A DNA stretch of 34,741 nucleotides, taken from NCBI GenBank assembly GCA_016213175.1, contig JACRBF010000019.1, forward strand, positions 1 through 34,741. Direction: 5' to 3'. Below the pieces are notes generated by a model that searched no databases, was not told where the DNA came from, and saw only the letters and a program-made list of their open reading frames with translations. Positions 7,744 to 33,548 of this stretch are shown here, piece after piece. This DNA is from Chlamydiia bacterium. Its GTDB lineage: Bacteria > Chlamydiota > Chlamydiia > Chlamydiales > SM23-39. The position numbers were made by a program, and so were the translations under genes. Position 1 is the stretch's first letter; every line of letters starts with the position of its first letter.

Positions 7744-9309
7744 ATGCAGTCGAATAATACGGCGGAATTCGGGAAATGGCGCTCTTTTTTCTGGCCCATT
7801 CATCGGTGGGAATTGAGAAAATTTCTACCGCTCTTCCTCATGTTCGCGCTCATTGCATTCAACTATAACCTGCTGCGCGCCTATAAAGACTCCATGATCA
7901 TGACGGCTAACCACTCTGGCGCCGAAACAATCCCTTTCATTAAGGTATGGGCGATTCTCCCTAGCGCCATTTTGTTAACTTTTATTTTTACAAGATTGAC
8001 CAATCGCTTTTCCCGAGAAAAAGTCTTCTATATCATGATGCTCATCTTTTTAGCATTTTTCTTTATTTTCGCCTTTGTCCTCTTCCCCTCTCAAGACCTA
8101 TTGCACCCCAACCATTTAAGCGATCGATTGCAAGCGATGCTCCCCAGCGGCTTCAAGGGGCTGATCGCCCTATTCCGCAACTGGACGTTCACCCTTTTTT
8201 ATGTGATGTCGGAGCTGTGGAGCACTGCGATCCTCTCTGTCTTGTTCTGGGGGTTTGCCAATGAGGTGACCTCCGTGGGCGAAGCGAAACGCTATTACGG
8301 CCTCTTGATGATCGGAGCCAACCTCGCAGGGATCGCTTCAGGTCAAGTAGCCATTTTATTTTCAGGTGATATTTTTCTCTCCTGGATTCCCTATGGAAAA
8401 AATGCCTGGGACCAGTCGGTACTCTTCCTCAGTTGCGCGATCATTTTCTCAGGAATTTTGACCATTGCGATCTTTCGCTGGCTGAACATCCAAGTCCTCA
8501 GACATTCTGATACTGCCCAGTCAATACAACAGCCCGAAAAAGTGAAGATGTCGATGCGGAAGAATTTTGCCTATCTCGCAAAATCAAAATACTTAATTTG
8601 CATCGCTGCGATTGTCGTCTCCTATAACCTCGCTATGAATCTCATTGAAGTTGTCTGGAAAAATCAGATCAAAAATCTCTACCCGAATCCGAGCGAATAT
8701 AACGCATACATGGGCGAAGTCATGACTTGGATGGGAGTGGTGGCAACGGTGGTGGCTATTTTCGTCACAAATAATGTGATCAGACGTTCCTGGACGATTA
8801 CGGCTCTGATCCCTGCCTTCATTACTTTGATCACGGGACTTGCCTTCTTTCTTTTTACTCTCTTCGGGCATACCGAGAGCAGCCTTTGGATCAGCTCCCT
8901 TCTCAACACAACGCCGCTCATGCTGGGTCTTGCATTCGGCTCCATTCAAAACTCGATGAGCAGAGCGTGCAAATATACCCTTTTCGACGCGACAAAAGAG
9001 ATGGCTTTTATCCCCTTAAGCGCCGAATCAAAACTCAAGGGCAAAGCCGCAATTGATGGGGTCGGGTCCCGCATAGGCAAATCGGGGGGCGCCGTGGTAC
9101 ACCAAGGGCTTCTCCTCGTCTTTTCTACCGTAGCCGCCAGCACCCCCTACATTGGCGGCATCTTCCTTATCGTCATCCTCATCTGGATTCTCTCTGCCGT
9201 CTCGCTCGGCAAACAATTCGATGCGCTAGTGACCGGAAAATCGAAGCTGGTCATCCCCTCAGACCCCGTGCCCAAGCCATCGTCAGTCCTCATGAGCGAG
9301 GGGGCTTGA
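7744..9309 (+). CDS. npt1: ATP/ADP translocase (TLC family nucleotide transporter)
   Basis: An inner-membrane antiporter of the plastid and obligate-intracellular-bacterium type, expected to import host ATP in exchange for ADP. The N-terminus has the family pattern FGKWRSFFWPIHRWELRKFLP followed by NYNLLRAYKDSMIMTA. About eleven to twelve hydrophobic segments run through the protein. The C-terminal block KGKAAIDGVGSRIGKSGGAV is the most conserved TLC signature. The length of 521 residues is normal. Environmental chlamydiae have several paralogs with different substrates; the neighbourhood npt1, pgsA, sppA, polA is that of the chlamydial ATP/ADP exchanger, so I favour that role, but substrate choice is inference. 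The stop lies five bases before pgsA. Confidence 0.94.
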   Translation: MQSNNTAEFGKWRSFFWPIHRWELRKFLPLFLMFALIAFNYNLLRAYKDSMIMTANHSGAETIPFIKVWAILPSAILLTFIFTRLTNRFSREKVFYIMMLIFLAFFFIFAFVLFPSQDLLHPNHLSDRLQAMLPSGFKGLIALFRNWTFTLFYVMSELWSTAILSVLFWGFANEVTSVGEAKRYYGLLMIGANLAGIASGQVAILFSGDIFLSWIPYGKNAWDQSVLFLSCAIIFSGILTIAIFRWLNIQVLRHSDTAQSIQQPEKVKMSMRKNFAYLAKSKYLICIAAIVVSYNLAMNLIEVVWKNQIKNLYPNPSEYNAYMGEVMTWMGVVATVVAIFVTNNVIRRSWTITALIPAFITLITGLAFFLFTLFGHTESSLWISSLLNTTPLMLGLAFGSIQNSMSRACKYTLFDATKEMAFIPLSAESKLKGKAAIDGVGSRIGKSGGAVVHQGLLLVFSTVAASTPYIGGIFLIVILIWILSAVSLGKQFDALVTGKSKLVIPSDPVPKPSSVLMSEGA

Positions 9310-17356: not shown

Positions 17357-18822
17357 CTCCCCGCTTCTTTGGCTCTAAGGTGATCACTGTCCAGGAAATG
17401 TCCCGTATCGAGCAGCTCGCTAAACAAGAGGGTTGCAGAGAAGATCTGTTCATCGAGGAAGCGGGAAAAAAGATCGCTAGAGCCGCCCTAGAATTAATGG
17501 AGACGAAAAAGCGTCCAAAAACTGCGTTTTTACTCATTGGCAAGGGAAATAAAGGAGCGGATGCCTACGCCGCTGGATTGTGTCTTCTTGAAAAGGACTT
17601 GAAGGTACATGCATTAGCCCTGTTTCCACTGCAACAATGCTCGGAATGGAATCGAAAATTTATGCAACGTTTTGTCCAAGGACGGGGCACTGTGGCAAGC
17701 GTTTGGGAAAAAAAGAGATCCTGTAGCGGAGAAGGGCTTCTTATCGACGGTCTCTTTGGTACTGGATTTCAGGGTCAAGTCGATGGGCTTGCAGCAGAAA
17801 TAATCCGCTGGGTCAATGATTCCGGCATTCCGATTCTATCCATCGACATTCCCTCAGGACTCGACGGAACAACAGGAGAGATCCGTGGCGTATGCGTCCA
17901 TGCACACACAACTGTCACTCTAGGAATGGCGAAAATAGGGCTCTTTTTACGGGAAGGCTGGAATGTCTGCGGACAGCTCCTGGTCGAGAATTTTGGCCTG
18001 TCAAACCGTTGGATTGAAGCGGCGCAAGCTACCGCCTATCTACCGGATGAAACGAGACTCCCCCTACCACAAATAGTGCGTAATCGGCACAAATACCAGG
18101 CGGGCTATGTTCTAGGGCTTTCGGGATCAGCAGTCCTACGCGGAGCGCCCAAGCTTGCGGGACTTGCTGCCTTGAGAGCAGGGGCTGGAATCGTGCGCGT
18201 ATTTCACAGGGGACAGATCGGCGAGGCGCCGATCGAATTGATTTGCCAGAAGTGGAATGCGGGAGATTGGAAAAGAGAATTGGCACGGGCTCAGGCGCTA
18301 TTTGCAGGCCCTGGAATGGGGATGCGTTCAGAGCGCTGGCACAAAATTAAGGTCCCCATGGTTCTGGACGCGGATGCTTTACAGAAGGAGATGACGTTTG
18401 GACTCCAGACAATCGCGACGCCCCACCGAGGAGAGATGCTCCGCTTATTAGGGATAGAGGCAGTAGGACTAGAGGAGGCATTCCTAATACTGTGTCAAAA
18501 ATTTGCAGAGAAAAAAAAGTTAACTCTCCTTTTGAAAGGAGCGCCTACTTTTATCTTTTCACCCCTCTCTTTGCCACTCATTATTCCAAGAGGCGATCCC
18601 GGCATGGCGACAGCCGGAACAGGCGACGTACTCACTGGGCTTGTGACAGGATTACTTGCCCAAGGACTTTCTTGCCATGAGGCGGCAGCAACAGGCGCCT
18701 ATCTCCACGCACTCGCAGGTGAAAGAGCAGCTCGCCTTCATACTTCTTACAGCATGATCGCAAGCGATCTGATCACTCACCTACCTGAGGCGTTTGAAAC
18801 TTTACTCAACGCTTCAGAATAG
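17353..18822 (+). CDS. nnr: Bifunctional NAD(P)HX epimerase / ADP-dependent dehydratase
   Basis: This enzyme repairs hydrated NADH and NADPH. The N-terminal YjeF-type epimerase domain (about 1-215) has LLIGKGNKGADAYAAGLCL and LIDGLFGTGFQG plus SIDIPSGLDGTTGEI. The C-terminal ribokinase-like dehydratase domain (about 225-489) has KYQAGYVLGLSGS, LRAGAGIVRVF, VLDADAL, ATPHRGEMLRLLG and GMATAGTGDVLTGL, whose aspartate is the usual catalytic residue. The epimerase P-loop-like region reads GKGNKGADAY where most members have GxGNNGGDG, a conservative drift. The 489 residues fit a fused enzyme. The start overlaps the previous stop by four bases, and the 3' end overlaps the converging epimerase gene by 46 bases. 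Confidence 0.93.
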   Translation: MTPRFFGSKVITVQEMSRIEQLAKQEGCREDLFIEEAGKKIARAALELMETKKRPKTAFLLIGKGNKGADAYAAGLCLLEKDLKVHALALFPLQQCSEWNRKFMQRFVQGRGTVASVWEKKRSCSGEGLLIDGLFGTGFQGQVDGLAAEIIRWVNDSGIPILSIDIPSGLDGTTGEIRGVCVHAHTTVTLGMAKIGLFLREGWNVCGQLLVENFGLSNRWIEAAQATAYLPDETRLPLPQIVRNRHKYQAGYVLGLSGSAVLRGAPKLAGLAALRAGAGIVRVFHRGQIGEAPIELICQKWNAGDWKRELARAQALFAGPGMGMRSERWHKIKVPMVLDADALQKEMTFGLQTIATPHRGEMLRLLGIEAVGLEEAFLILCQKFAEKKKLTLLLKGAPTFIFSPLSLPLIIPRGDPGMATAGTGDVLTGLVTGLLAQGLSCHEAAATGAYLHALAGERAARLHTSYSMIASDLITHLPEAFETLLNASE

Positions 18823-19778
18823 GCGCCCGCATGATAGCCCTTATACCACGCGATAAACCGATCAATTCCCTGTTCGAGAGGCACTGAGGGACAAAAACCT
18901 AGAAACTTTTCACTCTTTTCGATATCTGCACAGGTTCCCACCACCTCGCCAGGCTGCATGGGCAATAGCTCCTTGATCGCCTTTTTCCCTAAACTCTTTT
19001 CAAGCAGCTCAATGAGATACAACAGCTCCACAGGACGGTGATTGCCTAGGTTGAAAATCTCGCAAGAGGCTCCCAAATCGATCGCGGCTATCGTACCATT
19101 GACAATGTCATCGATATAGGTAAAATCGCGTCGCATCCGTCCTGCGTTGAAGACCTGAATCGGCATGTTATTGGAGATCAAATGAGCAAACCGATAATAG
19201 GCCATGTCAGGGCGCCCCCAGGGACCGTAGACAGTAAAATAGCGCAGTCCCGTTACAGAAAGACCGTAGAGATGATGATATGCGTGGGCAATCACTTCGT
19301 TGGCTTTTTTCGTGGCCCCATAGAGATTGGCTGGCTGATCAGTGCTGTCCTCGACAGAGAAGGGGATCTTTTCGTTGAGCCCATAGACAGAGGAAGAGGA
19401 GGCGTAGGTGATTTTGAGGCTGGGAAATCTACGACACGCTTCGAAAACAGATACAAACCCTTGAAGATTGGAAGCCACATAGTCATCTGGCTCCGATAGC
19501 GAATGGCGCACCCCTGCCTGCGCCGCTAAGTGTACGACGTGAGTAATCCCATGGCGCAATAACGCGAGCTGCAAGAGATCTCGATCGCGAATATCCGCAT
19601 GGAGGATCTCGATCCCCTGTTCCTGAAGCTGCACGGCGCGTCCCTTTTTTAGCTGCACATCGTAATAGGCATTGAAATGATCGAGCCCGATGACGAAATC
19701 GCCCCGTTTGTGGAGAGCCAAGGATAGATGGTAGCCGATGAACCCGGCTGCCCCTGTAACGAGAATTCGTTTTCTCAT
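18777..19778 (-). CDS. UDP-glucuronate 4-epimerase-type NAD-dependent epimerase
   Basis: A short-chain dehydrogenase/reductase that most likely interconverts UDP-glucuronate and UDP-galacturonate. The NAD site GAAGFIG is at residues 9-15. The catalytic pair Y153 and K157 sits in NLYGATKKANE, with SSSSVYG upstream. The block VYGPWGRPDMAYYRFAHLI and the following RRDFTYIDDIV are diagnostic of the glucuronate 4-epimerase branch. A UDP-GlcNAc/GalNAc epimerase is less likely. It is divergent from the Wza-like gene across a 55-base gap (19779-19833) and shares UDP-glucuronate with the UDP-xylose synthase at 23884. It overlaps nnr by 46 bases, tail to tail. No good ribosome binding site is seen before its ATG. 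Confidence 0.88.
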   Translation of the reverse strand: MRKRILVTGAAGFIGYHLSLALHKRGDFVIGLDHFNAYYDVQLKKGRAVQLQEQGIEILHADIRDRDLLQLALLRHGITHVVHLAAQAGVRHSLSEPDDYVASNLQGFVSVFEACRRFPSLKITYASSSSVYGLNEKIPFSVEDSTDQPANLYGATKKANEVIAHAYHHLYGLSVTGLRYFTVYGPWGRPDMAYYRFAHLISNNMPIQVFNAGRMRRDFTYIDDIVNGTIAAIDLGASCEIFNLGNHRPVELLYLIELLEKSLGKKAIKELLPMQPGEVVGTCADIEKSEKFLGFCPSVPLEQGIDRFIAWYKGYHAGAYSEALSKVSNASGR

Positions 19779-19833
19779 AAAAAAAGTTATGGTATATAGA
19801 GACTCGCTCTCATTCTAGGAAGTATCTAAGAAA
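19779..19833. promoter_or_regulatory. Divergent promoter region between the epimerase and Wza-like genes
   Basis: Only 55 bases separate two start codons facing outward. A TATATA block at 19793-19798 reads as a possible -10 on either strand. I cannot identify convincing -35 boxes; part of the promoter for each gene would have to lie in the other gene's 5' end. AGGAAG at about 19818 serves the Wza-like start. Shared or mutually exclusive control is an inference from the spacing. Confidence 0.35.
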
Positions 19834-20886
19834 ATGGCAACTATTCAAAAAAAAAGGTTCCTCATGCTGTGCTTCTGCCTTCTTTCCGGATGCAGTAGCT
19901 CCTATCTGGGGAAAGAGCTCTTCGGAGCGGATGAATTCGTCCTCGATTCCTACAGGATCCGGGAAGGAAAATTTTCCATCCTCGAGATGGAAGGACAATG
20001 CAGTCAAGACTTCGATGAAAGCCTGCTCGACGAATATCAAGATACCATTCACGAAGACGATGTATTGCAGATTCAGCTCTATGCCCCAAAACGGAGCGAT
20101 GTGGCAGACGCTGTAGGAGCGATCGGTCAGACCATTGGATATCGAGTCGTAGGCGGCACAGTGATCTTGCCCGATTTGCCCCCCATTGAGGTCTCAGGAC
20201 TCAGCCTCGAGGAAGCAAGGCTTAAGATCCAATCCCACTACCAGAGAAATATTTATGATACAGAAGTATTCGTCTCCTATAAAAATCGAATTGCACGCAA
20301 AGTGGAATTGGCAGGTTTAGTCGGCTTGTCCAGCGTACCCGTTGACGGTAAAATCCGCCTATTCGATGTCTTATCCAAAGCGCAGATCCCTCCTGAGGCA
20401 AATCTATTCAAGAGCTACCTGGTGCGTAACGGGACTTTGATGACAGTTGACATGCATAAGCTCATGAAAGAGGGCGACATGTCGCAAAACGTGGTCATGC
20501 AAGGGGGCGACAAAATCTATATCGCGGAAAGCTCCGCTGCGACATTGATGGTGATGGGAGAAGTATCGCGCGAACGGGTCGTCAATCTTCCCTCAGGCAA
20601 AATGTCCTTGCGCCAGGCGCTCGCTGAAGCAGGAGGCATCCCTTATACGGGAGATAAATCCTACATCCAAGTGATCCGCGGCAGCATTCTCAAACCCAAA
20701 ATCTATACTCTGAATTGGGAACACGTAATCCATCTACCCAACGATAGTTTGCTTCTCATGCCAGGAGACATTGTATATGTTGCTGCAAAACCGATCACGG
20801 AGTGGAATCGATTCATCTCCCAACTCCTCCCTAGCTTTGCTGGATTTGATGTCGTAGGCAAACAGGTACAGGTATTAATCCCGTGA
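19834..20886 (+). CDS. Wza-like polysaccharide export lipoprotein (Poly_export and SLBB domains)
   Basis: Predicted outer-membrane or periplasmic component of a polysaccharide export channel. The N-terminus has a lipobox, LLSGC with C20 as the lipidation site. A Poly_export domain runs from about 65 to 150 (HEDDVLQIQLYAP; GGTVILPDLPPIEVSGLSLEEAR). SLBB-type beta-grasp segments follow at about 155-235 and 243-320 (VMGEVSRERVVNLPSGKMSLRQ; LLMPGDIVYVA). The C-terminus ITEWNRFISQLLPS matches the amphipathic helix by which Wza forms its outer-membrane pore. At 350 residues it is near normal Wza length. The Wzc-like partner follows after a 118-base gap containing an inverted repeat. A secretin-like SLBB protein is the alternative, but the C-terminal helix argues for Wza. 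Confidence 0.87.
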   Translation: MATIQKKRFLMLCFCLLSGCSSSYLGKELFGADEFVLDSYRIREGKFSILEMEGQCSQDFDESLLDEYQDTIHEDDVLQIQLYAPKRSDVADAVGAIGQTIGYRVVGGTVILPDLPPIEVSGLSLEEARLKIQSHYQRNIYDTEVFVSYKNRIARKVELAGLVGLSSVPVDGKIRLFDVLSKAQIPPEANLFKSYLVRNGTLMTVDMHKLMKEGDMSQNVVMQGGDKIYIAESSAATLMVMGEVSRERVVNLPSGKMSLRQALAEAGGIPYTGDKSYIQVIRGSILKPKIYTLNWEHVIHLPNDSLLLMPGDIVYVAAKPITEWNRFISQLLPSFAGFDVVGKQVQVLIP

Positions 20887-20943
20887 AGCCTGGTCTAGCC
20901 CGTATTTCTCACACAGACCGGAGAAAAGGTGGACGAGATGTTA

Positions 20944-21017
20944 TGCCGGATTTCGAACATCGCGAGGAGGTCAATATTGCCGCAATATTGACGACGAGCG
21001 ATTTATGAAATCCGGCG
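20944..21017. repeat. Inverted repeat spanning the start of the Wzc-like gene
   Basis: Arms of about 36 bases (GCCGGATTTC, then ATCGCGAGGAGGTCAATATTG, against their approximate reverse complement) flank the perfect 21-base palindrome TCAATATTGC-C-GCAATATTGA centred at 20981. The right arm contains the ATG of the 960-residue protein at 21005 and its first four codons. GAGGAGG at 20964-20970 in the left arm is a strong Shine-Dalgarno-like sequence, but 34 bases from the ATG. The GGTCAATATTG centre also occurs in the element at 136-306, which hints at a related family. Confidence 0.8.
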
Positions 21018-23887
21018 TGACAGATCGTTCAGATTTTCCCGGAATGTGTGAGAAATGCGGGTTAGAAAGCGATGAAAGGGTGTTTACCTTATCTGACCTC
21101 TATCTGCTTGTACTCCGCTGCCAAAAACGGATTCTCTATGCAGCGCTATGGGGAGGCCTTGGCTTCTTTGCAATCTCAAGCACCTTCGCCCTTAAACACC
21201 GTATTGAATCTACATTCAAAGAAGGCGCTGAGAGTACGAATTCCGAGCTCAGCTCTTTAAAACAATTATTTGGAATGAGCTCAACTGGCGGCGCAGAACC
21301 TCAAGTCGTCGTCTTAATGAAATCCTACCCAGTTCTAAAGCCTCTGATCGAACGTCTCGGCTTGCAGGCAACCGTCTCTCAGCACACCCGTATGACCAAA
21401 TTAGCTCTGCGTATCCGCGACAATTTCTTAGCAGAGTTCGGTACGCAGATCGCCGATACGGACGATTTCGTGTTTCACGATCTCTTCTATAAAGGCGAAC
21501 GAGCCGTAAACTATAGTCTGCAGTTTTCCGATCCAGAACACTTTTCCCTTCTTTCTGGAGCCACAATCCTGGAAGAAGGTGTCCTCGGCACTCCTCTGCG
21601 CCTTCCCGAATTAACCTTTACCCTCTCAAAGGCGCCCCAAGGACTGCGCCTTCATCACCCCTACCCCCTCTGTATAGAATCCTGGATTCAGACAGCTAAC
21701 CATTTGCGCCAGGGCATTCGGATCTCCGCCAATAAGTTCAGTCAATCTGTGTATGATTTACAATTGGAGCATCGCAATCGCCACACCGGCACTATGATCT
21801 TGAATGAACTAATGCAATCCTACTGCAATTACTTGAAGCTTGATTATGACCGCGTCTCCACAGAACAGCTCAATTATTTGGAATACAGACAAGGCGAAAT
21901 CTATGGTAAACTCTCTGGTATTTTCGATGAACATGCCGCCTATTTACAGGAAAACCTGAATCAGAAGGGATTTTTGGGAGTCAAGCAAGAGGCCGAAGGA
22001 ATCTCCAATTCCTATCAGCAGATGCTGGAAAAACTCTTAGCTGTACAGATGGAATTAGACCATATTTCCCTCATGGACAAAGAGAAAAAATCTCTCATCC
22101 CCTCGGGGAATGGATCGTTTTTTACAAGCATCCAGAACCTTGTTCAAGAAATGCAAAATCTCAGGCAGCAGAAGGACCTCTTCGAATTATCGCTTCAAGG
22201 AAAAGACCCTCAATTGACTACGGAGCAGCAATTTCTCTCGCGCCAAGAAGAATTAAAGAGCATTCGGTGCAAAGAAGAAGCCGTACAGAATCTGCTTATC
22301 CTCATAGAAACCGAATCGCCAATACCCTGCGATCCTTCCCTATTCGATCCAGTCCTCTCCCTCTCGCAGTGGGGACTTGCCCTTGATAAAGCCTCCCATG
22401 AGGAGAAAGGGGCTCTTGCCACGTACTTGAAGGAACATTTACGCCTTCTATCAATGCAAGAAAAAATGGTTCAGGAACGGATGTTTTATGCAGAGAGTCC
22501 CTCTGATGAATCTGTAGGTCTGGATCTGCATACCTCTCATACTTTACTCCTCAAATACAATACGCAGATTGATGCGAACGAGATGCGCATATGCCATCTG
22601 AGACAGCTCTCTGAGCAAATCTCTGCCGCAGATTTTGAACTCAGCGCGCTCGGGGCGACGCTAACAGATCCCTTAAGCGTGCAATTACTGAACAAAGCAA
22701 GCTCCCTCTCATTGCAATTGAAAGATGCGAAATCCCACAGTGAAAAAGAGGGACTGAGATGGAATGAGGAACTCTTACTCAGTAAAAAAATTCTCGCAGA
22801 CCATGTCGCCCAGCTCATGAAACTCGAACAATTACACCTCGGGCTTGCCAAGGAAAAAATGTATGCTCTTCGGCGCGGTGTCCTTGAGTGCATCAATGGG
22901 CAGCTCTCGGTGCTGCAGAAACAACTGGACAATTCGTTCCACGAACGAGTCCGCGCGCTAGGACAGGAAGGAGACATCCTACAACAGGCCATGGCAGACA
23001 TGCGCGAGGGCTTTACCGATCTTCCCGAAAGATGGCGCAAAGAAAAATGGCTGGACCTCAGAATGCAGATGGGAGTTAAGATGATCCAAGCTCTGAGCGA
23101 AATCGTAGAATCAAAAACCATTGGCAGACACCTGCATCACGTCGAATCAAAACCGCTCGACCTCGCTACTCCCCCTCTTTCCCCCACTCCTCCGAGACTT
23201 TTTCTCAAAGCCTTTCTTGGGTCGTTTGGTTTGGGAGGGGGTGTTTTTTTTCTTGCCCTTATCCAATCGCTCATACACGGATTTCCAACATCCCCTCATA
23301 AGCTGCGCGCTATGCGCTACCCCTTTCTCGGAGAAATTGGCGCGCGTTGCCATGGAGTCAATCTAGACAAAACGGCTAAAACCGATCTGGCCCTACTACG
23401 CAGCATCGCTTTGTTCATCAATACCTTGCCCAAAAAGAAAATCGTCGGTCTCTTAACGACAGGAAAGCCTGACTATTCTGGATTGCTTGGAGAGCTCTTA
23501 GGCAAGATGGCTCTACGCATTCTGATTATACGATGCGATTTTGACAAAGAAGAGATGCATCCTGATCCCTCAGATGCTCTTTCCATCCAGAAAGGCAAAG
23601 AGTGCGATCACCTCACTTGGGGGAAATTGTCTGTGCATGGGGTCGAATTTATGCAATCGGCGTCTTGCAAGCATACGCTCGAACAATATGCGAACTCCTA
23701 TGATCATATTCTCCTGCTAACCCGAGCTCCTCTCGATGCCGCAGAACACTTAGCTGCACTCCGTTTGTGCGATGGGGCCATCGTCACGGTATCAGGAGAG
23801 TCTACAGAGCTGTTGACACCGTTCATCAAATGGGCTTACCATGGAGAGGTCTGCCGTCTGGCGTTCATTGCGTTAGGTCAGGGATGA
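21005..23887 (+). CDS. Wzc/GumC-like polysaccharide co-polymerase with degenerate BY-kinase domain
   Basis: Inner-membrane protein expected to control polysaccharide chain length and couple synthesis to the Wza-like channel. A short cytoplasmic N-terminus with CEKC (15-18) leads to membrane helix 1 (about 43-64). A long periplasmic part, largely coiled coil, spans about 65-720. The proline-rich [13 protein letters not shown] near 722-734 and helix 2 (about 733-756) are the Wzz/Wzc hallmark. The C-terminal 170 residues resemble a bacterial tyrosine kinase: [20 protein letters not shown] (Walker A' position) and [29 protein letters not shown] (Walker B position). The P-loop itself is [11 protein letters not shown] at about 818-828, without GxGK[ST], and no C-terminal tyrosine cluster exists, so it is probably a pseudokinase. 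The end overlaps the next gene as ATGA. Confidence 0.82.
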
Positions 23888-24825
23888 AAGGGCGTAAACG
23901 AATTTTAGTAGCTGGCGGTGCGGGATTTCTCGGATCGCACCTTTGTGAAAGACTTCTCAAAGAGGGCTCGGAAGTTCTCTGCGTGGACAATTTCTTCACT
24001 GGCAACAGATCGAACTTACTTCAGCTCATGGAGTCGCCCTACTTCGAAGTCATCCGCCATGATATCTGTCTTCCTCTCAATATTGAAGTCGATGAGATCT
24101 ATAACTTTGCCTGCCCTGCATCCCCTCTCCATTACCAAAAAGACCCTATCCAAACTCTGAAAACAAGCGTTCTCGGTTCCCTCAATCTTCTCGGCCTCGC
24201 AGAGCGCCTAAGCTGCAAAATCTTCCAAGCCTCCACCAGTGAAGTATATGGAGATCCTCATCTACATCCGCAGACCGAAGAATACTGGGGAAACGTCAAC
24301 CCAATCGGCCAGAGATCCTGTTATGATGAAGGCAAACGCTGTGCAGAGACCCTCTTTTTCGACCATCATCGCCAGAAAGGAGTACGCATTAAAGTGGGTA
24401 GAATTTTCAATACCTACGGCCCTCGTATGCATCCCAATGATGGCAGGGTCGTCTCCAACTTCATCGTGCAAGCCCTGAAAAATGAACCGCTTACTGTCTA
24501 CGGAACTGGCAACCAAACGCGCGCTTTTTGCTATGTGCATGATCTGATCGAAGTGATCATACGTCTGATGAGCTCTTCCGATACGATCACAGGTCCCATC
24601 AATATAGGCAATCCTTCCGAGTTTCGCGTCCTCGATCTGGCGCAAGAAGTCTTACAACTCACTGGATCTTCTTCCCAAATAGAATTCCGTCCCCTCCCAT
24701 CCGACGACCCCAAACAGCGAAGGCCCTCCATCCACCAGGCGCAGCAAGTGCTCGGATGGGAACCAAAGACCTCCCTCACAGAGGGGTTAAAACAGACGAT
24801 CACCTATTTTCAGTCCGTTCTATGA
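23884..24825 (+). CDS. uxs: UDP-glucuronate decarboxylase (UDP-xylose synthase)
   Basis: Converts UDP-glucuronate to UDP-xylose with NAD as bound cofactor. [10 protein letters not shown] marks the NAD site near residue 11. The UXS signatures [28 protein letters not shown] and [20 protein letters not shown] are all present, with catalytic Y147 and K151 in [28 protein letters not shown] completes the family pattern. The frame is open further upstream, but the ATG at 23884 overlaps the Wzc-like stop (ATGA), gives the standard start just before the NAD motif, and yields 313 residues, normal for bacterial UXS. It is translationally coupled to the co-polymerase. The last 16 bases overlap pbp2 on the opposite strand. 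Confidence 0.93.
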
Positions 24826-27800
24826 TTCTTCTGGATTTCGCGCCATTTTTGAATCATTTGAGCAGCAAGCGGCGCCGCCTCTTTCCCTGACTCTCCGTAG
24901 CGAAGCAAAATCACCACAACAAGTTCAGGATAGTCATAGCGCATACGAACCGGATAATGAGGAGAAAATGAAACAGCTCCAAACCAAGCATGCTTGTACA
25001 TTTGCGGCACACTCAGAGGCAGCGCATCCGGATTCCAAAGCACCTCTGCCGTACCCGTTTTTCCAATCATCTGATGTTGCAAGGCAAGATAGTCCGGCAG
25101 AAGAGAAGGGTTCTTCCGGAACAGCTGGATATTTTGGTAATGCGCGCTCCCCTTACTTCCCCAGACCACCCGATCCATCCCTTCGATCAATTGCATCCGA
25201 TGCGCAGGAGAAAGGGGGACGGATCTACGGATCTGCACAGGACGCTTCCAAGCAGCAGGATGGGGAGATTTCCCTTGAACTCCTGTAAAAAGAGAAAAAG
25301 GAACACCAAGCGCCGTGAGTTCCTGAGAGGCGAATCCCGTCTCGAGAGAAAACGCTGATAGCGCCTTTCGATCGGGAGATAATCCGACCGATTCCAGCAC
25401 GATTTTTGGTTTGAATAGAGTTCCCCCATTCGCGATGACTCCCAACATGCCAGCCGCTTGCAGAGGCGTTGCAAGCAGCGTATGCTGACCAATTGCAAAA
25501 GAGTAGAGTCCCGTTCGATTGGTCTTCAAATCGGTAGGAAGATTACCCGCCGTTTCACCGGGCAGTTCAATCCCACTCTTCGCACCATAACCTAAGACAG
25601 CGGCCCTATTTTTCAAATCGTCCGGATCTGCCAAATAATCCCCTGCGAGAATGGAAAAAAAAGGATTGCTCGTCTGTTCCAGCGCCCCCGCAAGATCGAT
25701 TTTCCCAATCTGCGAACGACTGCTGCGGGGCAACCTTCCCCCTTTATACATACGTGGATAGGGTGTCCCATTGGCAGCGTAAGCCACAATTTGACTCTGA
25801 TCTTGACGATCCGTAAGGATAAGCTGCGCCCCTTGTCTCAGCGACTCATAGGATGTGACAAGTTTAAAAAGAGACCCTTGAGGCGCTGCACTTTGAAACG
25901 CATAGGAACGCAAGTACCCGAAGCCCCCTTGCGGATAAAAAGCTGCCGCCAAATCTTTTTCCGTCTTCCGCTTCCGATAACTGCCCAAAAGAGGCAGATC
26001 CAGCTCTTTGAACGAACGGAATGTGCGCAAAAATTCTTCGAATAATGCCAAAGGCATCCCTTGCGCGATTGTAGAAAACTTAGGATCTTCCACAATCCGC
26101 GCCTTAAGCAGCTCCAGCCGCTTTTCGCCCCAGTACGCATGAAACAGCTCACTTTCTTTCCGATCCAAATAATCGATATAAGGGCGGACGTAGGTTTTCC
26201 TCTCTTTTTCCTCACGCCGCTTATCTGCCAAAAATGCTTTTTGATGATCCTTTCTCCAAAGCGAGAACGCCCCCTTGCGAAATTTCTCCCTCTCTTCGCT
26301 AACAATACTCTTCTCCAATCCTAGAAAATGCTGACATAGCTCCCGATAGAACCCAAGCTTCATCGTCCCCAATTTGGCAATCAACGCATCGCTAAAACGC
26401 GTACTATCGATCACCAAGCGACATAGATCGATGGCAAAAAGCCTTTCTCGAGCCGTTGGTACAGCACCTAAGAGCATCTTCAGCCTCTCCCTCGCAGCAC
26501 CCACCTGCGCCTCTGGCACAGAATTGGAAGCAGAGGAGAAAATCTCCTCCATGATCCTCAAAGGATCTTTGATTTCGGAAAAAAAGCGAACCGCCTCAAA
26601 ATCTTCTTGAAGAAAGATTGCCGTCTGAACGTCACCATGGTTCCTGAAAAAAAGACGCAACGCCCCCTCTTTGGGAAGAACGCGGTCTAGATAAAAATCC
26701 CATGTGATAAAGGACGCCTCTTCTACAAAATAGCGCTCAAAACGTTCCCGCACAAGAGGCTCTTCTCCATCCCAAAGCGCCGCGATATGCTTTTCATTTT
26801 CCAACCACCGAGAAAGACGCTTTTGCCTCTTATCATAACCCAATTTCTTCGTAGAAGGGATAAAATCGTTAGGGTTAAACCGCGGGAAACTGGCCATTGC
26901 GAGCACCTCTCCGCTATTCGGTTCCAGTGCAACAATCGCCCCTCCCCGAATCCAAGGCTCTTTTTGGACCTTCCTCTTACCGTCTTTCGGATCGATGCCA
27001 AAGCTCCTCCCTTCCCGTTCTTTTTCGCTTTTGCCAAGCAACTCCTCCGCATACTGTTGCAACTCTGCCGAGAGAGAGAGGACGATTTGACGTCCCGCGA
27101 TCGCCCCTCTCCCCCCAGGCAATTCCTTGACCAACCGCCCTGCAAGATCAATCTCAAATTTTTTTTTGCCATAAAAGCCGCGCAACTCCTCTTCACACTG
27201 CCCCTCAATTCCGCTTTGCCCCACCAGATCGTTCAATGTATAGGACTTCTCCCTAAGTTCTTGAAGACGAAGAGCTACCGCCTCGAAGGAGGCATACCCC
27301 GGAGGAAGCGCCGTCTCAATTCCTTGTTCGTAGCGCCATGCCGACTCCCCTAAAATAGCCAATTCTTCAACGATTTTTTGATACTTCCCAGAGCCAATCG
27401 CCCCCATTGTTCCAATGAGGTGAGAGGCCACCTTCTGTAAAGGATAAAACCGCTTTGTAGCGATTTCTGCCTGCAAACCAGGGAAATCCCGCTCCAACCC
27501 CTTCAAACAGTAATATTCCTCCTCAGAAAGATCCGACTTCAAGGGAAAAGGCACATGGGGGAAAAAGGATGCCTTAGAATAGATTAGATCCTCAAGCCGC
27601 TCTGCATCGAGATCCAACACAGAAGAGAGCTTGTGAGAGAATGTCCTGATATACTCTCTTCTCGGATAGCAGCGCGATCTGATCCCATCAGCATCTTCGC
27701 GAAAGCAAACAGAGGGGATCTGTGTCATCTGCCCATAATAGACAACAGCATTATAGCATATCTTATTTATAGCCAAAGGGATATGGAACCTATCACAGAT

Positions 27801-27965: not shown

Positions 27966-27995
27966 GTTCAAAATATACACTCCCTGCGGTTTCTC

Positions 27996-28031
27996 TTGGA
28001 AAAAAATCGAATTCTAGGGTAAAACTACTAT
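27996..28031 (+). promoter_or_regulatory. Possible promoter for tRNA-Gly and rpsB
   Basis: TTGGAA at 27996-28001 is followed by TAAAAC at 28020-28025 (18-base spacer) and by TACTAT at 28026-28031, the latter 13 bases before the tRNA. The matches are modest and two -10 choices compete. The gap between the pbp2 start and the tRNA is only about 80 bases, so a promoter must lie here. Confidence 0.3.
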
Positions 28032-28044
28032 TTCGTTTATCGAT

Positions 28045-28115
28045 GCGCCTGTAGTTCAATGGTAGAACAGTAGCCTTCCAAGCTACGAGTGTCAGTTCAA
28101 TTCTGTCCAGGCGCT
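28045..28115 (+). tRNA. tRNA-Gly (anticodon TCC)
   Basis: The cloverleaf is readable: acceptor GCGCCTG with CAGGCGC, D-stem GTTC with GAAC, anticodon stem GTAGC with GCTAC around the loop CTTCCAA, and a T-loop TTCAATT. The anticodon TCC reads GGA and, with wobble, other glycine codons. The T-stem GTCAG/CTGTC has one T-T mismatch at the second pair. CCA is not encoded. It lies directly upstream of rpsB. Confidence 0.93.
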
Positions 28116-28156
28116 AGTCCCCCCATTGGGGTTAACACTAATTTTTGAGGGAAATT

Positions 28157-31426: not shown

Positions 31427-32488
31427 ATGGCATCTGTGCATAAGCGAAAAGAAGGCGGTTGGCGCGCTGTCATCCGAATGAATGGCTCTCCAACTGTTTG
31501 CGAAACATTCGACCGCAAACAAGAAGCCGACGATTGGGCCAAAGAAACTGAACGCCGCATCAAACTCGGTGGTTTTAATTTCTCTGCCCATAATAAACAT
31601 CATACCTACGCCGACCTACTGCATCGCATGGAAGGAGATGGTGTTTTCGATCATCAACATTCTTTCAAAAACTGCCGCTCGCAGTTTGACTACTGGAAAC
31701 AGCGGCTCGGCGCCTATTCCCTCATCCATATCACCCCCGAACTCATTGTCGAAGAACGCAAAATCCTCGTCGGTTCACCGCTTCCTGACGGCTCCAAACG
31801 CAGTCCTTCTACCATCAACCGCTATACTGCTGTCCTTTCTGCCACTTTCGGCTATGCTGTCAAAAAGCTTCGCTGGATTGTTGAAAATCCCTGTCGTACG
31901 CTGTCAAAGTTGAAAGAAAGTTCAGGGCGTGATCGCATCCGCAAGAACGAAGAAATCACCCGTCTTCTCGATGCTTGTAAGCAAAGCAAATCGTCCCTTC
32001 TCTATCCCATTGTTCTCTTCGCCATCACTACAGGCGCCCGTCGTGGAGAAAGTCTCAAGCTTGAATGGCGTCATGTAGATCTCGAAAAAGGCCTTGCGTT
32101 CCTCACAGAAACAAAAAACGGCCGCCCACGTAGTGTTGCCTTGTCCGATTCTGTCATCGCCGAATTCAAAGCCCTTTACAGTCTTCGCAATCCAACCAAG
32201 CTCCTTGTGTTCGCTAGCAAAACAGCCTTCGGGCAAATCGATATTACGAAAGGCTGGATGCAAGCTGTTCAAAGAGCCGGTCTCATCGATTACCATTTCC
32301 ATGACCTTCGGCACCAATTTGCTACTTTAGCAGCTGGACAGGGAGCTTCCAACGTCGAGTTGGCCACAGCTATGGGTCATCGCACTCTTTCTCAATTGCT
32401 TCGCTACTCAAATCTCTACGCCAAGAACAGTAAAAAATTTAGTGGTCATATCTCAGAGAGCATTCTCAAAGGAAGTACCCATGAATAA
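31427..32488 (+). CDS. Tyrosine recombinase (phage-type integrase)
   Basis: Site-specific recombinase of the integrase family. An N-terminal arm-type or SAM-like DNA-binding region covers about 1-165, and the catalytic domain about 170-345. The catalytic residues can be placed: R205 in TGARRGES, K230 in TKNGRPR, H292 and R295 in HDLRHQFA, H318 in MGHRT and the nucleophile Y327 in LLRYSNLY. All are present, so it should be active. AGGAAG precedes the ATG. Its position 152 bases after tRNA-Lys fits insertion of a mobile island at a tRNA gene. The stop overlaps the next start by eight bases (ATGAATAA), which ties its translation to the nuclease gene, an unusual pairing. Confidence 0.93.
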   Translation: MASVHKRKEGGWRAVIRMNGSPTVCETFDRKQEADDWAKETERRIKLGGFNFSAHNKHHTYADLLHRMEGDGVFDHQHSFKNCRSQFDYWKQRLGAYSLIHITPELIVEERKILVGSPLPDGSKRSPSTINRYTAVLSATFGYAVKKLRWIVENPCRTLSKLKESSGRDRIRKNEEITRLLDACKQSKSSLLYPIVLFAITTGARRGESLKLEWRHVDLEKGLAFLTETKNGRPRSVALSDSVIAEFKALYSLRNPTKLLVFASKTAFGQIDITKGWMQAVQRAGLIDYHFHDLRHQFATLAAGQGASNVELATAMGHRTLSQLLRYSNLYAKNSKKFSGHISESILKGSTHE

Positions 32489-33548
32489 AGAACTTTCAAC
32501 ATTGTCGCATCGCGCTGCGACAATCTTGCCGCAAGGCCTGATCGACGAGCTTCGCTCGATGATCGATCAGACAAAACAGTCTATTGCAGTCTCTGTAAGT
32601 GCCCAGATGGCAATGCTTTACTGGCATATCGGCAATCGAGTGCGTAAAGAAATTTTGAGCGGTCAGCGAGCCGAGTACGGGCAAGAAATTGTCGCCACAG
32701 TGTCGCGACAATTGACCTCCATATATGGCAAGGGATTCTCTGACAAGAGTTTGCGTCGCATGATCCAGTTTGGAGAGGTTTTCCCTGACGAGAAGATTGT
32801 CGCATCGCTGCTGCGACAATTGAGTTGGACGCACTTTACATTCCTGATCCCTATCAAAGACCCTCTTAAGCGCGATTTTTACGCTGAAATGTGTCGTATT
32901 GAGAAGTGGAACGTACGCACTCTTGATAAGAAGATTAACTCCATGCTCTTTGAGCGTACGGCGCTCTCCAAAAAGCCGGAATCTCTAATTGACGCGGAAA
33001 TCGCGCTGCTTCGCAAAGAAGATCAGCTCTCCCCCGATCTGGTTTTCCGTGATCCCTACATCCTTGAATTTCTCAATCTCGATGATCGATACGTAGAAAA
33101 AGATCTTGAAGATGCCATCATGCGCGAGCTCGAGCAATTCCTCCTTGAATTCGGAGTCGGTTTTACTTTCATGGCTCGTCAAAAGCGTATCGTAGTAGAC
33201 AATATCGACTTCCATCTCGACCTTCTCTTCTTCCATCGTCGTCTTCGAAGGTTAGTGGCCATCGAGTTGAAAGCAGGCGATTTTCGGCCAGAATACAAAG
33301 GACAGATGGAACTCTATCTTCGCTGGCTTGATAAATACGAACGGCAGCCTAACGAGGAATCTCCTATCGGCCTCATCCTCTGCACAGGCAAAAATCATGA
33401 GTGCATCGAACTGCTCGAACTTGATAAAGCAGGCATCCATGTTGCTGAATATCTCACGGCATTACCTTCTAAAGAAGCGTTGCGTCAGCAGTTGCAGCAG
33501 GCAAGCAAACGTGCACGTCGTCGTCTAGAGGAGGAGGCGCATGAGTAG
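32481..33548 (+). CDS. DUF1016 (YhcG) family PD-(D/E)xK nuclease
   Basis: YhcG-type proteins combine an N-terminal DUF1016 helical domain with a restriction-like nuclease fold and are widespread in mobile and defence regions; their natural role is not settled. Here the N-domain spans about 17-165 (MAMLYWHIGNRV; YGQEIVATVSRQL; LSWTHFTFLIPIKDPLKRDF; FYAEMCRIEKWNVRTL). The nuclease domain covers about 190-340, with the metal-binding residues D247 and E262-L-K264 in IDFHLDLLFFH and LVAIELKAGDF intact. The length of 355 residues is complete. AGGAAG precedes the ATG at 32481. The start overlaps the integrase by eight bases, and the stop overlaps the next small gene by eight bases. Three palindromes lie inside the N-terminal coding part. 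Confidence 0.92.
   Translation: MNKELSTLSHRAATILPQGLIDELRSMIDQTKQSIAVSVSAQMAMLYWHIGNRVRKEILSGQRAEYGQEIVATVSRQLTSIYGKGFSDKSLRRMIQFGEVFPDEKIVASLLRQLSWTHFTFLIPIKDPLKRDFYAEMCRIEKWNVRTLDKKINSMLFERTALSKKPESLIDAEIALLRKEDQLSPDLVFRDPYILEFLNLDDRYVEKDLEDAIMRELEQFLLEFGVGFTFMARQKRIVVDNIDFHLDLLFFHRRLRRLVAIELKAGDFRPEYKGQMELYLRWLDKYERQPNEESPIGLILCTGKNHECIELLELDKAGIHVAEYLTALPSKEALRQQLQQASKRARRRLEEEAHE
32501..32820. repeat. Three copies of a palindrome ATTGTCGC-n-GCGACAAT inside the DUF1016 gene
   Basis: Copies lie at 32501-32524 (9-base arms, 6-base spacer), 32687-32713 (9-base arms, 9-base spacer) and 32796-32820 (9-base arms, 7-base spacer). Copies two and three are in the same frame and encode IVA followed by RQL, which is conserved in the family. 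Copy one is in another frame and falls in the variable N-terminus. That difference suggests nucleotide-level similarity, not only protein conservation. Confidence 0.6.

Follow-up and report, generated by a model that had tools for sequence, protein, structure and literature searches.

A conserved Wza–Wzc-type locus as the probable export end of a capsule-like polysaccharide pathway in Chlamydiota outside the Chlamydiaceae

The closest described relatives of the locus reported here are the group 1 capsule and colanic acid systems of Escherichia coli, in which a lipoprotein channel, Wza, is paired with the co-polymerase Wzc. Wza belongs to a family of outer-membrane channels that is not known to be used for lipopolysaccharide (LPS). 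To our knowledge, no capsule has been described in the Chlamydiota, which are obligate intracellular bacteria. In E. coli, the tyrosine-rich tail of Wzc must undergo both autophosphorylation and dephosphorylation by Wzb (PMC8285477), and a survey reports that capsules are encoded by very few obligate pathogens (PMC5542703). A 2009 table includes Wza itself among the predicted clusters of chlamydial outer-membrane proteins (PMC2811131), and the relevant part of a 2016 survey places the Chlamydiae among the holders of the Wza exporter family (PMC4827864). Here we analyse a stretch of 34,741 nucleotides (GenBank assembly GCA_016213175.1, contig JACRBF010000019.1, positions 1 to 34,741), which as a whole we call the window, from a Chlamydiia bacterium. 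At 18777-24825 it encodes a Wza-like lipoprotein, a Wzc-like co-polymerase and two nucleotide-sugar enzymes resembling UDP-glucuronate 4-epimerase (GAE) and UDP-xylose synthase (UXS). Our conclusion is that with these genes most sampled Chlamydiota outside the Chlamydiaceae have probably kept the export end of a capsule- or exopolysaccharide-like pathway that depends on Wzy.

The locus resembles the E. coli systems in that the gene for a Wza lipoprotein channel lies beside that for a co-polymerase of Wzc fold, with a priming transferase of the Bac_transf family, a Wzy-type protein and UDP-glucose dehydrogenase (UGD) encoded in the same genome. It differs from them as follows: the synthesis genes are scattered over contigs; neither Wzx nor Wzb was found in the window's own genome, an assembly of 1.19 Mb in 61 contigs that is 86% complete; the Wzc-like protein has lost both its Walker A motif and its tyrosine-rich tail; and GAE, often together with UXS, flanks the export pair.

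The Wza-like protein scores 29.5 bits against Pfam Poly_export (cut-off 28), and exceeds the Pfam cut-offs for SLBB_2, SLBB and Wza_C as well; its match to E. coli Wza (2j58) has an E-value of 1.4e-23. The lipobox cysteine (lipobox read by eye) is invariant in all 19 sequences of our alignment A1, in which the 18 other members are 45-72% identical to the window protein. Its lipobox, its domains and its Wza C-terminal helix place it among the Wza-type outer-membrane polysaccharide exporters (OPX), with a predicted channel function.

For the two enzymes, a first-pass annotation of the window had proposed UDP-glucuronate as the common substrate. The GAE-like protein matches Pfam Epimerase at 2.2e-52, and its closest solved structures are 5u4q (8.8e-96) and 6zl6 (3e-58), the latter of which we take to be a bacterial UDP-glucuronate 4-epimerase; the catalytic regions of these two structures align with those of the window protein at SSSVYG and YxxxK. 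The UXS-like protein matches 4gll (UDP-glucuronic acid decarboxylase 1, presumably human UXS1) at 3e-120, and the active-site motifs TSEVYGD, YDEGK and QTRAF are common to both, the differences being that the chlamydial enzyme is bacterial and that its start codon overlaps the stop codon of the co-polymerase gene as ATGA. By this likeness, the two enzymes would act on UDP-glucuronate and give UDP-galacturonate and UDP-xylose, respectively. No NCBIfam model reaches its cut-off for any of the four module proteins.

The Wzc-like protein on its own has no match in Pfam, NCBIfam or the PDB sequences. A profile of 26 sequences, however, matches E. coli Wzc at 3.2e-33 in two stretches corresponding to the periplasmic and cytoplasmic halves. 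At E<=0.01, Pfam Wzz is found in 10 and GNVR in 4 of the 26 profile members, and neither in the window protein. The AlphaFold model (mean pLDDT 79.8, pTM 0.45) has membrane helices at residues 40-60 and 732-758, with helical stretches at 259-714 between them, and most of 65 homologues show one helix near the N-terminus and another late in the chain when scanned for hydrophobicity. A Foldseek search with the model returned Wzc chains as all of its 31 best matches (best 9.4e-23). In a VIA structure comparison, the model and Wzc gave Z 19.6 and a root-mean-square deviation (rmsd) of 14.2 over 547 residues, and the C-terminal domain alone, compared with the kinase domain of E. coli Wzc (3la6), gave Z 18.5 and an rmsd of 3.5 over 195 residues. 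At 960 residues the protein is longer than the solved Wzc chains (about 720-740). The kinase-less co-polymerases KpsE and Wzz, which rank further down among the fold matches (Z 12.2 and 9.2), share with it a two-helix anchor and a periplasmic part, apparently likewise without a working kinase, whereas the chlamydial protein keeps a C-terminal fold like that of the bacterial tyrosine (BY) kinases and is encoded beside Wza. The possibility that it is an unrelated coiled-coil protein is rejected by the profile match and by the Foldseek and VIA fold matches; the alignment profile and the predicted fold together settle its assignment to the Wzc type (PCP-2a). Both it and the lipoprotein thus stay within the polysaccharide export families that the first-pass annotation had named (Wza-like and Wzc/GumC-like), with the qualification that the kinase motifs of the co-polymerase are gone.

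The Walker A pattern [AG]x4GK[ST] occurs nowhere in any of 65 closed Wzc homologues, these being the 65 of the 77 Wzc-like open reading frames (ORFs) of the named loci whose stop codon lies inside the locus. The ATP loop that surrounds K540 of Wzc (M in that construct) comes out shortened in the alignment to the profile, and in this region the window protein has GKPDYS. The tyrosine-rich C-terminal tail is gone as well: the last 25 residues hold one tyrosine in the window protein and between zero and three in the 65 homologues. We regard the protein as a probable pseudokinase co-polymerase, predicted from these losses to lack kinase activity. Given the loss of both the Walker A motif and the tail, export should be independent of the phosphorylation cycle, which is essential in E. 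coli, and the machine is likely either to be assembled constitutively or to be under some other form of control. Alignment A2 excludes truncated sequences and those with internal stops. In a separate observation, five loci (L146, L153, L157, L161 and L167) encode Wzc-like proteins with a C-terminal domain of ~115-145 residues after the last helix in a crude scan, which suggests that some lineages are progressively losing the pseudokinase domain.

Gene order around Wza was counted for 80 of the 120 named Wza relatives, those that ranked best by likeness to an alignment headed by the window protein, so that the counts lean to close relatives; denominators below 80 omit loci with a contig end too near. 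Wzc lies directly downstream of Wza at 77 of 79 loci, GAE lies divergently upstream of Wza at 58 of 75, and UXS follows directly downstream of Wzc at 28 of 57. Several of the loci where GAE is missed carry the label Parachlamydiaceae, and in one genome (G096) the non-adjacent GAE was found elsewhere. Tens of loci repeat this order, and the arrangement is not due to chance. In comparisons with three relatives, the third codon position is more variable than the first two in all four genes, which on this measure are under purifying selection. For sequences above set lengths (81 Wza, 57 GAE, 63 Wzc, 32 UXS, 32 of the neighbouring PBP2 and 37 of the neighbouring NnrE/NnrD-type protein, NNR), we compared pairwise distances with those of the core protein PBP2, obtaining r 0.83 for Wza (n=32), 0.87 for GAE (n=30) and 0.89 for Wzc (n=29). 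Contamination or recent transfer is rejected, given that relatives have the same neighbours and that the Wza, GAE and Wzc distances track those of PBP2. The simplest reading is of an old module, vertically kept, with losses.

Across 232 Chlamydiota genomes, a Wzc-like gene is present in 149, Poly_export in 140, both in 136 and either in 153; the first of these counts rejects the possibility that the module is confined to one lineage. Bac_transf is present in 159 of the 232, GAE-like genes (E<=1e-60) in 169, and UGD family matches in 194, 183 of them over cut-off. No member of a group of genomes from three families (G001-G028; f2, f3 and f4) appears in the Wzc, Wza, Bac_transf or GAE lists. One of these families, f4, whose genomes are 1.0-1.2 Mb where shown and mostly near-complete, is probably the Chlamydiaceae. 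Outside this group, Wza or Wzc is carried by 153 of 204 genomes, and Wza occurs in records labelled Simkaniaceae, Parachlamydiaceae, Rhabdochlamydiaceae and Waddliaceae. The priming transferase goes with the export genes, Bac_transf being present in 137 of the 153 genomes with Wza or Wzc versus 22 of the 79 without. The window's genome appears by kinship to belong to an uncultured Chlamydiota family, not to the Chlamydiaceae, and in this family Wzc is found in 26, Wza in 23, Bac_transf in 27 and GAE in 29 of 32 genomes. The first-pass annotation had set the locus against the Chlamydiaceae and had called the module incomplete within the window. That framing gives way to one of a conserved trait, and the earlier interpretation is partly supported: it named the right kind of system but drew its scope too narrowly.

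The labels of some records deserve a remark of their own. Two loci with the order NNR, GAE, Wza, Wzc, PBP2 (L130 and L143) come from records labelled Chlamydia trachomatis; these are almost certainly mislabelled environmental metagenome-assembled genomes, and their labels could mislead searches for capsule genes in C. trachomatis. Chlamydial gene order is likewise found in L141, L150 and several loci labelled Verrucomicrobia (e.g. L117, L118 and L145); these records, with labels of Aerophobetes, Acidobacteria or Verrucomicrobia, look like mislabelled Chlamydiota.

The window contig (C3) holds no match to UGD, Bac_transf, PF13440, Wzy_C, GT1, GT2 or PF01943, in agreement with the first-pass annotation, which had supposed that the module must be completed elsewhere or serve another purpose. 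We searched the window's own genome for PF13440, PF04932, PF00534 and PF00535, and the whole phylum for PF01943, PF01451, PF02397, PF02563 and PF03721. Partner synthesis genes are present on other contigs, and completion elsewhere is supported for all but a dedicated Wzx. On contig C41 a Bac_transf priming transferase and UGD lie with an adjacent polyprenyl synthase gene, followed by a second epimerase-family gene; the Bac_transf match is 2.7e-64 (L060:317-958), and at two further loci (L105 and L106) UGD and the transferase are one gene apart (middle gene read by eye). Contig C29 encodes a Wzy_C protein (L094:14029-16158; 3.7e-11, 43.5 bits against a cut-off of 31.7). Its membrane half is 30% identical to a protein encoded between PBP2 and wzc in a Simkaniaceae-type genome (G226), whose family includes the Simkaniaceae record CP073762, and homologues of the G226-type protein occur at 7 of 80 named loci when searched with this one Simkaniaceae-type query. 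Because polymerase and ligase share the Pfam family Wzy_C, the polymerase activity of the C29 protein is putative. The same gene is unusual in itself: its single ORF of 709 residues joins the Wzy_C membrane protein (264-412) to a complete UbiE/MenG-type methyltransferase (485-708), which is either a fusion or an assembly artefact.

Glycosyltransferases of the GT2 family are encoded on C29, C20 and C9 (two) and, weakly, on C44, and GT1 matches lie on C5 and C23. The two GT2-domain proteins on C9 (L095:7376-8314 and 8311-9072) are in tandem, and each starts with a hydrophobic, signal-like segment, a start that is unusual among cytoplasmic glycosyltransferases, as read by eye. Two candidates for Wzx on the contigs that were read were considered and rejected: one on C43 is MurJ, and the other, a neighbour of the priming transferase with 12 transmembrane segments in L101, is an MFS protein.

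From these genes we propose the following pathway. UGD of contig C41 would oxidise UDP-glucose to UDP-glucuronate, part of which the window's GAE and UXS would convert to UDP-galacturonate and UDP-xylose. The Bac_transf-type phosphoglycosyltransferase, encoded on C41 near the polyprenyl synthase gene, would prime a repeat unit on polyprenyl phosphate, to be extended by the unlinked GT2/GT1 enzymes and flipped by MurJ or by a divergent flippase, both of which are candidates. The Wzy-type protein of C29 would then polymerise the units, and the Wzc-like co-polymerase would hand the polymer to the Wza channel, through which it would reach its predicted location at the cell surface. With a cytoplasmic domain that keeps the BY-kinase fold without its ATP-binding loop and tail, assembly and chain length would probably be set without the phosphorylation cycle needed by E. 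coli. The real puzzles in this scheme are the flippase step and the probable pseudokinase co-polymerase.

It is important to set out what weighs against this pathway. The best PDB match of the epimerase, 5u4q, was deposited as a dTDP-glucose 4,6-dehydratase, and because GAE and UXS exceed no NCBIfam cut-off, their substrates rest on likeness rather than on a curated family; the proposal of a shared UDP-glucuronate substrate stands to that extent. The glycan, with its putative galacturonate or xylose, is here a prediction from the genes. No dedicated Wzx exceeds the cut-off (PF01943, PF13440) in the window's 86% complete genome, where the one sub-cut-off match to PF13440 is MurJ, and across the phylum PF01943 occurs in 46 of 232 genomes, 34 of which are among the 136 that have both Wza and Wzc. 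The linkage is also imperfect: GAE is not beside Wza at 17 of 75 loci, and UXS does not immediately follow Wzc at 29 of 57. The distances of UXS track those of PBP2 more weakly (r 0.66, n=20), and those of NNR correlate with Wza, GAE, Wzc and PBP2 at r 0.28-0.48 and with UXS at -0.09 (n=19). Bac_transf occurs without Wza or Wzc in 22 genomes, and the reverse holds in 16. Finally, no low-molecular-weight (LMW) phosphatase was found in the window's genome at its 86% completeness, an absence that lends weak support to a pathway without phosphorylation cycling, because LMWPc is present in 58 of the 136 genomes with both Wza and Wzc (and in 71 of all 232).

Of the other explanations, the one that survives best, which we nevertheless regard as unlikely, is that the Wza–Wzc pair and the uronate enzymes serve the decoration of LPS or protein with an O-antigen-like or glycoprotein glycan, Wza being a general exporter of glycans or glycoconjugates. 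Such a role would fit the Pfam name of Wzy_C (O-Antigen ligase), the lack of any Wzx found in most module genomes, and the occurrence of GAE in genomes that have no Wza match, such as G033-G038. It sits poorly with the family of Wza, as introduced above, and with the Wzc-like protein, which is closer to the co-polymerase that partners Wza than to Wzz.

We hold it to be very improbable that the module is a relic, its kinase site and flippase already lost and its pathway no longer running. The Walker A (P-loop) motif is indeed missing from 65 of 65 closed homologues, the window's genome has no Wzx match over cut-off, and a crude scan puts the C-terminal domain below 150 residues in 10 of the 65. 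However, the ORFs are intact and under purifying selection, Wza keeps the 45-72% identity noted above across A1, and the linkage is maintained across families; moreover, the motif loss looks old rather than a matter of recent decay, because it is common to all closed homologues. Least credible of all is an ordinary group 1-type capsule system, its kinase active through a divergent ATP site and its Wzx missed in an 86% complete assembly, since this reading, though helped by the AAA_31 and CbiA matches of some relatives (2 and 1 of the 26) and by the module genomes that do have Wzx or an LMW phosphatase, runs against the Walker A region, shortened relative to Wzc and with GK[ST] in no closed homologue, against the lack of a tyrosine-rich tail, and against the absence of PF01943 from 102 of the 136 module genomes.

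The four genes that we assign to the export end of a capsule-like pathway are all intact ORFs, as the first-pass annotation had read them, and are listed in Table 1. GAE is transcribed away from wza, the Wzc-like gene is the next gene after wza, and UXS comes next. The mechanical ORF of UXS starts at 23767, and its likely start is the ATG given in the table.

Table 1. Positions in the window of the export module genes and of the divergent intergenic region
Feature	Position	Strand	Basis
GAE-like UDP-glucuronate 4-epimerase-like SDR	18777..19778	-	Pfam and PDB likeness; putative product UDP-galacturonate
Divergent intergenic region between GAE and wza, 55 bp	19779..19833	.	Sequence read
Wza-like outer-membrane polysaccharide export lipoprotein, lipobox Cys20	19834..20886	+	Pfam domains; match to E. 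coli Wza
Wzc-like polysaccharide co-polymerase with degenerate (probable pseudokinase) C-terminal domain	21005..23887	+	Profile; fold
UDP-glucuronate decarboxylase / UDP-xylose synthase-like (UXS)	23884..24825	+	4gll match

The module is flanked in a Pfam scan by the NNR gene (YjeF_N/Carb_kinase) and the PBP2-type gene, and farther out lie rpsB, tsf, pyrH and frr, all four identified by eye. Promoters and terminators were set aside as features of the module, their counts being near the shuffled level: promoter-like matches in 18500-25100 number 8 (shuffle mean 6.8, standard deviation 2.8), with no excess, and terminator matches number 9 against 6.5 in shuffles, which gives no basis for claims. 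Between PBP2 and the rpsB-like gene there is a gap of ~165 bp (27980-28145) and no gene for a major outer membrane protein at this place, where ompA sits in the Chlamydiaceae. Past the frr-like gene (named by eye) and close to where the contig ends, the window encodes a phage-type integrase (PF00589) and a YhcG/DUF1016 PDDEXK nuclease protein (31427-33548), which together are a probable mobile element. In one other genome, the neighbourhood of the export module includes, two genes away from the epimerase gene, a gene for a BNR/Asp-box (sialidase-like) protein (L067:5360-6439).

Two parts of this picture were already known: chlamydial Wza as an outer-membrane protein cluster, in the 2009 table (PMC2811131), and a link between a chlamydial epimerase and the plant enzyme GAE (PMC2376095, PMC3220709). 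Among the matches listed in the open-licence literature, Wza in chlamydiae appears only in outer-membrane protein surveys, and we recognised no description of a Wza–Wzc–GAE–UXS module or of a kinase-dead Wzc in Chlamydiota. On the plant side, the relevant passages count GAE4 among plant genes of chlamydial origin (PMC2376095) and group plant GAE with Protochlamydia and Monosiga proteins at 100% support (PMC3220709). The homologue proposed there as the source of plant GAE is a Protochlamydia protein, to which we assume the window gene to be orthologous; the window gene is tied to a Wza–Wzc export pair, a context that those passages do not include.

This leads us to a tentative and rather doubtful conjecture that goes further than the export pathway itself: the ancestor of the environmental Chlamydiota may have worn an exported polysaccharide containing galacturonate and xylose, delivered by a kinase-free Wza–Wzc machine; the Chlamydiaceae may have lost the module on becoming animal parasites; and the GAE of the module may be of the lineage proposed as the source of the plant enzyme for pectin galacturonate, a link that stands on the passages of the two papers just cited. 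If it is true that most Chlamydiota outside the Chlamydiaceae export a uronic-acid polymer, this would change how we view their extracellular stage, their survival outside hosts and their uptake by amoebae, and would offer a concrete reason for differences between environmental and animal chlamydiae. It would also provide a functional home for the chlamydial protein related to GAE, the pectin enzyme of plants. A co-polymerase with a probably dead kinase, spread across a phylum, would be a natural test of whether Wza-linked export needs kinase cycling.

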